64,000 nt of DNA, taken from NCBI RefSeq assembly GCF_910593725.1, contig NZ_OU343031.1:1054001-1118000 (forward strand), written 5' to 3'. The DNA comes from Candidatus Vallotiella hemipterorum (GTDB lineage Bacteria; Pseudomonadota; Gammaproteobacteria; Burkholderiales; Burkholderiaceae). This document shows positions 28,106 to 33,933 of the stretch, in pieces. The notes under the pieces were generated by a model. The model had not been told where the DNA came from and did no database searches. It saw only the letters and a list, made by a program, of their open reading frames with translations. The translations under genes and the position numbers were made by a program. Position 1 is the stretch's first letter, and the number at the start of each line of letters is the position of its first letter.

Positions 28106-28180
<75 letters not shown>

Positions 28181-28195
28181 AAACACTTAAAACGT

Positions 28196-28269
28196 TGGAG
28201 CGGGTGAAGGGAATCGAACCCTCGTCATAAGCTTGGAAGGCTTCTGCTCTACCATTAAGCTACACCCGC
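28196..28269 (-). tRNA. tRNA-Gly (TCC)
   Basis: Full cloverleaf on the minus strand with anticodon loop CTTCCAA (anticodon TCC) and encoded CCA. It lies 15 bases upstream of tRNA-Thr in the Tyr-Gly-Thr cluster. Confidence 0.95.
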
Positions 28270-28304
28270 AAAATAGTTTTGTCTCATACTGCTACCGCAA
28301 ATCT

Positions 28305-28392
28305 TGGTGGAGGAGGTTGGATTCGAACCAACGTAGGCGTATAAGCCAACAGATTTACAGTCTGCCCCCTTTAGCCACTCGGGCACCCCTCC
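28305..28392 (-). tRNA. tRNA-Tyr (GTA)
   Basis: Class II tRNA with a long variable arm, anticodon GTA in the stem-loop CAGACTGTAAATCTG, and encoded CCA. It is the first gene of the tRNA-tuf transcription unit; its promoter should lie just above 28392. Confidence 0.95.
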
Positions 28393-28925: not shown

Positions 28926-29040
28926 GCCTGACAATTACCTACTTTCACACGGGCAATCCGCACTATCATCGGCGTGAAGTCGTTTCACGGTCCTGTTCGG
29001 GATGGGTAGGAGTGGGTCCAACTTACTATGGTCATCAGGC
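28926..29040 (-). rRNA. rrf: 5S ribosomal RNA
   Basis: About 115 bases with complementary ends (GCCTG against CAGGC) and the conserved 5S internal segments. It follows 23S by about 120 bases and is the last gene of the rRNA operon. Ends are placed by the terminal helix and may be off by one or two bases. Confidence 0.95.
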
Positions 29041-29149: not shown

Positions 29150-29163
29150 CGGACTAGTTATAG

Positions 29164-29171
<8 letters not shown>
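29150..29171 (-). other. 23S processing stem, 3' strand
   Basis: 22 bases at the 3' end of 23S that pair with 32041-32062 at its 5' end with one mismatch. Such a stalk is the known RNase III substrate in pre-rRNA maturation. Confidence 0.75.
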
Positions 29172-32040
<2,869 letters not shown>

Positions 32041-32045
<5 letters not shown>

Positions 32046-32062
32046 ATCCTATAACAAGTCCG
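32041..32062 (-). other. 23S processing stem, 5' strand
   Basis: Pairs with 29150-29171 (21 of 22 bases) to bring both ends of 23S together for RNase III cleavage. Confidence 0.75.
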
Positions 32063-32354
32063 TTTTTAATAGACTTGTTAAAGTCTAAGTTTTGTGTTGT
32101 GCAATACTTTTTAAGTATTTTAATTAACTTAAAAAGTAAATGATTCTACCCATCTATTTTTACATCTATTTTAAGATGTATTTAATAGATAGACTGCTTT
32201 TCCAGATTGTTAAAGAACGCTACAGTCGTATAAATATTTTTATACACTGCTTAATTACTAACATTTAGGTTTAAATATTAGTAATTAAGCAGTGTGGAGG
32301 CAGACGGAATCGAACCGACTGAGCTACAGACCCTTTGTCTGTCCCCGTAACTTT
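32063..32354 (-). other. 16S-23S internal spacer
   Basis: The spacer holds no intact tRNA. It carries an antitermination boxA at 32207-32220 (minus-strand GCGTTCTTTAACAA), a 12-base-pair perfect hairpin (32105-32116 with 32127-32138), an 18-base-pair perfect hairpin (32244-32261 with 32278-32295), and a 39-base chimeric tRNA remnant at 32295-32333. In Burkholderia this spacer usually has tRNA-Ile and tRNA-Ala. Confidence 0.75.
32295..32333 (-). pseudogene. Fused tRNA-Ile / tRNA-Ala remnant
   Basis: On the minus strand the first part, GGGTCTGTAGCTCAG, is the acceptor 5' strand and D-arm start of tRNA-Ile(GAT). It runs straight into TCGGTTCGATTCCGTCTGCC, which matches the T-arm and acceptor 3' strand of Burkholderia tRNA-Ala(TGC) with a couple of changes. 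Both anticodon arms and the 3' CCA are missing. A deletion from within tRNA-Ile to within tRNA-Ala explains this, since tRNA-Ile lies before tRNA-Ala in the usual spacer. It cannot work as a tRNA. Confidence 0.8.

Positions 32355-32397: not shown

Positions 32398-33933
<1,536 letters not shown>

Follow-up and report, generated by a model that had tools for sequence, protein, structure and literature searches.

Deletions between short direct repeats (short homologies) are known from reduced symbiont genomes. In Clostridioides difficile, length variants of the 16S-23S spacer without tRNA genes occur within one genome, and for these spacers slipped-strand mispairing and recombination were proposed, with at least one tRNA copy always being left (PMC4164361). 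The rRNA operon analysed here comes from 'Ca. Vallotia tarda', a symbiont of larch adelgids that is close to Mycetohabitans and whose published genome, a chromosome plus a plasmid, has three rRNA operons and contains 9 rRNA genes and 41 tRNA genes in all (PMC8692619). As in C. difficile, the spacer tRNAs of V. tarda are found in some operons of the genome and missing in others. However, the tRNA-less spacers of C. difficile are standing block variants seen in many strains, whereas that of V. tarda is one lineage-specific deletion, and one that leaves both outer tRNA ends in place. The loss resembles the symbiont deletions in being exact, in lying between short repeats and in affecting a redundant locus of a host-restricted bacterium, but differs from them in its target, an rRNA operon, the copies of which are kept identical in other respects.

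The genome consisted of two contigs (1,196,295 bp in total), namely a chromosome of 1,123,864 bp and a second replicon of 72,431 bp, and the window, that is, the whole 64,000-bp stretch analysed, corresponds to positions 1054001-1118000 of contig 1 (the chromosome). A genome search found 41 tRNAs and three 16S rRNA genes, each with a model score of 1553.5 bits. Three rRNA operons were present, one of which lies in the window (Table 1).

Table 1. Positions of the features discussed (window coordinates unless the chromosome is named)
Feature	Position	Strand	Remark
16S rRNA gene	32401..33932	-	identical to other two copies
Fused remnant, 39 bases	32295..32333	-	tRNA-Ile 5' acceptor strand and 5' half of D-arm, running into tRNA-Ala T-arm and 3' acceptor strand
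Deletion junction GTCGGTT	32313..32319	-	7-bp direct repeat; tRNA-Ile D-loop and tRNA-Ala T-arm
Hairpin, uninterrupted 24-bp stem	32244..32295	-	after tRNA-Ala, now starting at discriminator base A73
boxA-like element, presumably for antitermination, GTTCTTTAACAA	32207..32218	-	kept in window spacer
23S rRNA gene	29162..32048	-	identical to other two copies
5S rRNA gene	28926..29039	-
tRNA-Tyr(GTA), tRNA-Gly(TCC), tRNA-Thr(GGT)	28106..28392	-	downstream of window operon; marker for matching operon in congener
Spacer tRNA-Ala copies with lost C	chromosome 429637-429709 and 992878-992950; window 32295

Neither ARAGORN nor Rfam detected a tRNA in the 16S-23S spacer of the window, in agreement with the original prediction, which had been made from the window alone. 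On the minus strand the remnant reads GGGTCTGTAGCTCA-GTCGGTT-CGATTCCGTCTGCCTCCA. Its first 21 bases were identical to the 5' end of the intact tRNA-Ile(GAT) of the same genome and its last 25 bases to the 3' end (T-arm, acceptor strand and A73) of the intact tRNA-Ala(TGC), and the two parts overlapped by 7 bases, which are the shared repeat. The remnant has no anticodon arm, though it is identical to parts of functional tRNA genes. These exact matches confirm that the 5' end and D-arm of tRNA-Ile run straight into the T-arm and 3' end of tRNA-Ala, as had been read from the letters, and that the fusion is real.

The spacers of the other two operons were identical to each other, and each carried an intact tRNA-Ile(GAT) and an intact tRNA-Ala(TGC); the original prediction had expected such copies in a second rRNA operon, and they were found in two more, giving three operons in total. 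Apart from the deletion, the operon copies were 100% identical, also over about 350 bp of leader ahead of the 16S rRNA gene, and no other sequence difference sets the window operon apart. When one block of 165 consecutive bases was removed from the intact spacer, the window spacer was reproduced exactly, its length between the chosen markers falling from 517 to 352 bp. Such agreement is far beyond chance and bears out the proposal that a single deletion joined the two tRNA genes. The deletion has 8 equivalent placements because GTCGGTT stands at both of its ends: in the intact spacers this motif occurs once in tRNA-Ile and once in tRNA-Ala, 165 bp apart, and one copy is left in the window. A junction repeat of at least 7 bp was found for only 199 of the 132,355 possible deletions of the spacer (0.15%), and since junction repeats of this length are so rare, the GTCGGTT repeat was very probably causal. 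GTCGGTT is not the longest repeat available, as longer shared stretches, of 8-9 bp, occur in homologous parts of the two tRNAs at a distance of about 130 bp; deletions between those stretches would have yielded full-length hybrid tRNAs.

For comparison, 13 spacers were read from five congeneric genomes: every spacer found in G002, G004 and G005 (1.1-1.2 Mb; three each), a further three from G003 (3.8 Mb) and a single one from G007 (3.6 Mb). Both tRNAs were present at full length in 13 of 13. The spacer is likewise intact in a G004 rRNA operon that is followed by the same tRNA-Tyr-Gly-Thr cluster as the window operon (the three tRNAs of G004 being named by their order, spacing and score). Since all congener spacers read, including that of the operon with the same neighbours, are full length, the 165-bp deletion is derived in the V. 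tarda lineage. It had been set out beforehand that a failure of related intact tRNA genes to match the two halves would speak against the fusion; the related spacers matched both halves, and the claim survived.

A pattern for a D-arm running into a T-arm, looser than the fused motif GTAGCTCAGNNGGTTCRANYCC, was applied to 399 genomes of the order. Besides the window it matched at one place, where an unrelated insert separates the two motifs and which was taken as chance; the 398 other genomes contained no genuine equivalent. Fusions whose D- or T-arms are more divergent would escape this pattern as well as GTAGCTCAGNNGGTTCRANYCC. A scan of the collection for GTAGCTCAGNNGGTTCRANYCC itself gave 8 places, seven of which, judging from the sequence around them, look like random matches that do not lie in tRNA genes. 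The remaining one lies in a Selenomonas ruminantium MAG (L071:6121), where the 5' end and D-arm start of tRNA-Arg run directly into the T-arm and 3' end of tRNA-Pro. This scar (L071:6084-6175), which looks like a 45-bp tandem duplication between tRNA-Pro and tRNA-Arg, is a chimera of the D-arm-to-T-arm type like the V. tarda remnant; unlike it, the Selenomonas scar seems to stem from a duplication between adjacent tRNA genes, is not in an rRNA spacer and has both of its parents intact. Searches of the open-access literature gave no direct precedent for tRNAs that survive truncated or as remnants in the rRNA spacers of bacteria; reports in subscription journals may exist.

We consider it highly likely that a repeat-mediated loss of 165 bp in one of three operons left an inert scar that drifts as a nearly neutral variant. 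Slipped-strand replication or repair between the two GTCGGTT repeats would have removed the anticodon and T arms of tRNA-Ile, the inter-tRNA spacer, and the acceptor 5' strand, D arm and anticodon arm of tRNA-Ala, and the product would be a non-functional 39-base scar within the transcribed spacer. As the leader, the rest of the spacer, the boxA-like element and the rRNA genes are unchanged, the window operon probably still works and should produce 16S, 23S and 5S rRNA, while tRNA-Ile and tRNA-Ala would be supplied by the other two operons. With rRNA output kept and both tRNAs coming from two operons, the deletion would be nearly neutral and could drift in a small, host-restricted population. 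Relaxed selection and drift have been described in host-restricted genomes (PMC8692619), and the deletion is probably a recent case of ordinary decay of a redundant operon copy. It would represent a clean, polarised single event in a transitional symbiont with three identical rRNA operons that is starting to lose redundant spacer tRNAs, and suggests that a one-copy deletion can persist while other changes in the operons are homogenised.

We also weighed whether the remnant is kept for a function, for example as a minihelix RNA released by processing or as a signal for the processing of the spacer. It keeps the whole T-arm of tRNA-Ala, A73 and a possible G3.U70 pair, G3.U70 being an identity element for AlaRS, and it is presumably transcribed together with the rRNA. 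However, a tRNA-like minihelix, when forced, had an energy of +0.4 kcal/mol against -8.0 kcal/mol for an unrelated minimum, and its acceptor stem contained two mismatches and three wobble pairs, as expected from the earlier argument that ends taken from different tRNAs should not form a normal acceptor stem. The minimum itself was no better than that of shuffled sequences (mean -7.85 kcal/mol, z = -0.06), so the short processed RNA that the original prediction had thought conceivable was not supported, and no relative, nor any of the other genomes of the order searched, keeps a true equivalent of the remnant. A retained function is accordingly very improbable. Still less credible is the specific version in which processing of the rRNA precursor releases the remnant as a minihelix with a CCA tail that keeps G3.U70, can be charged with alanine and forms a small tRNA-like by-product of one operon. 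A functional armless or minimal tRNA was rejected on the grounds that there is no anticodon and that the acceptor strands come from different tRNAs and form no stable stem, and the fold energies led us to reject a hidden functional RNA as well. The best explanation of the remnant is a tRNA pseudogene, a dead leftover of a deletion by strand slippage or between short repeats.

The main rival reading is that the deletion is an artefact, produced either by a polymerase jumping between tRNA hairpins during library preparation or by a wrong path of the hybrid assembly among three near-identical operons. The junction is indeed a short repeat inside two structured tRNA genes, identical sequence in the three operons otherwise extends over more than 5 kb, which makes assembly difficult, and the short-read assembly was fragmented before long reads were added (PMC8692619). 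On the other hand, the final assembly was made with Unicycler from Illumina and Nanopore reads at 323x with a closed chromosome (PMC8692619), and a collapse would be expected to erase differences between the copies, not to introduce an exact junction in one of them; a template that was chimeric or carried a deletion could in principle introduce such a junction. Given the deep hybrid assembly, we regard an artefact as unlikely. The short spacer could also have been gained from another bacterium by recombination or be an ancestral spacer type, and mosaic spacers with and without tRNA genes are reported elsewhere, for example in C. difficile (PMC4164361); but flanks 100% identical to the sister operons contradict this reading, and such a spacer occurred in no congener read, which leaves it with hardly any probability beside a deletion within the V. 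tarda lineage.

The 3' ends of the tRNA genes offer a second sign of change. The spacer tRNA-Ala of V. tarda has lost one C of its encoded CCA (CCACCAC to CCACAC) in each of the three copies, whereas this C is retained in the congeners read. As the C loss is shared by all copies and the 165-bp deletion is confined to one, other changes appear to have been homogenised between the copies, and the deletion probably arose later. The encoded CCA was missing in 7 of 39 distinct V. tarda tRNAs (Ala-GGC, Ala-TGC, Arg-TCT, Lys-CTT, Ser-GCT, Ser-TGA and Val-TAC), in 6 of 29 tRNAs examined in G004, and in 0 of 27 examined in the large-genome relative G007 (3.6 Mb). Loss of encoded CCA is documented in reduced proteobacterial genomes, with retention in initiator tRNA genes (PMC5143459; PMC6581868); in line with this retention, CCA was kept in 3 of 3 tRNA-Met(CAT) genes of V. 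tarda. Judging from these gene sequences, the encoded 3' CCA ends of the V. tarda lineage are eroding along the known reduced-genome trend, at an early stage, and this loss together with the spacer deletion would mark an early stage of tRNA gene decay.

Two proteins with a PolyA_pol nucleotidyltransferase domain are kept in V. tarda, both with open reading frames, one probably being the CCA-adding enzyme and the other a poly(A) polymerase. No RNase Z scored above the NCBIfam cut-off in the genome, although the encoded CCA is missing in several tRNAs; a weak match was located at chromosome 374099-374209, inside an open frame of 294 aa. The 24-bp hairpin that follows tRNA-Ala is the same in all three V. 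tarda copies; in all congeners read, tRNA-Ala is likewise followed by a hairpin, irregular in form and kept although the sequence has changed. With its stem starting at the discriminator base of tRNA-Ala, the V. tarda hairpin might affect 3' trimming.
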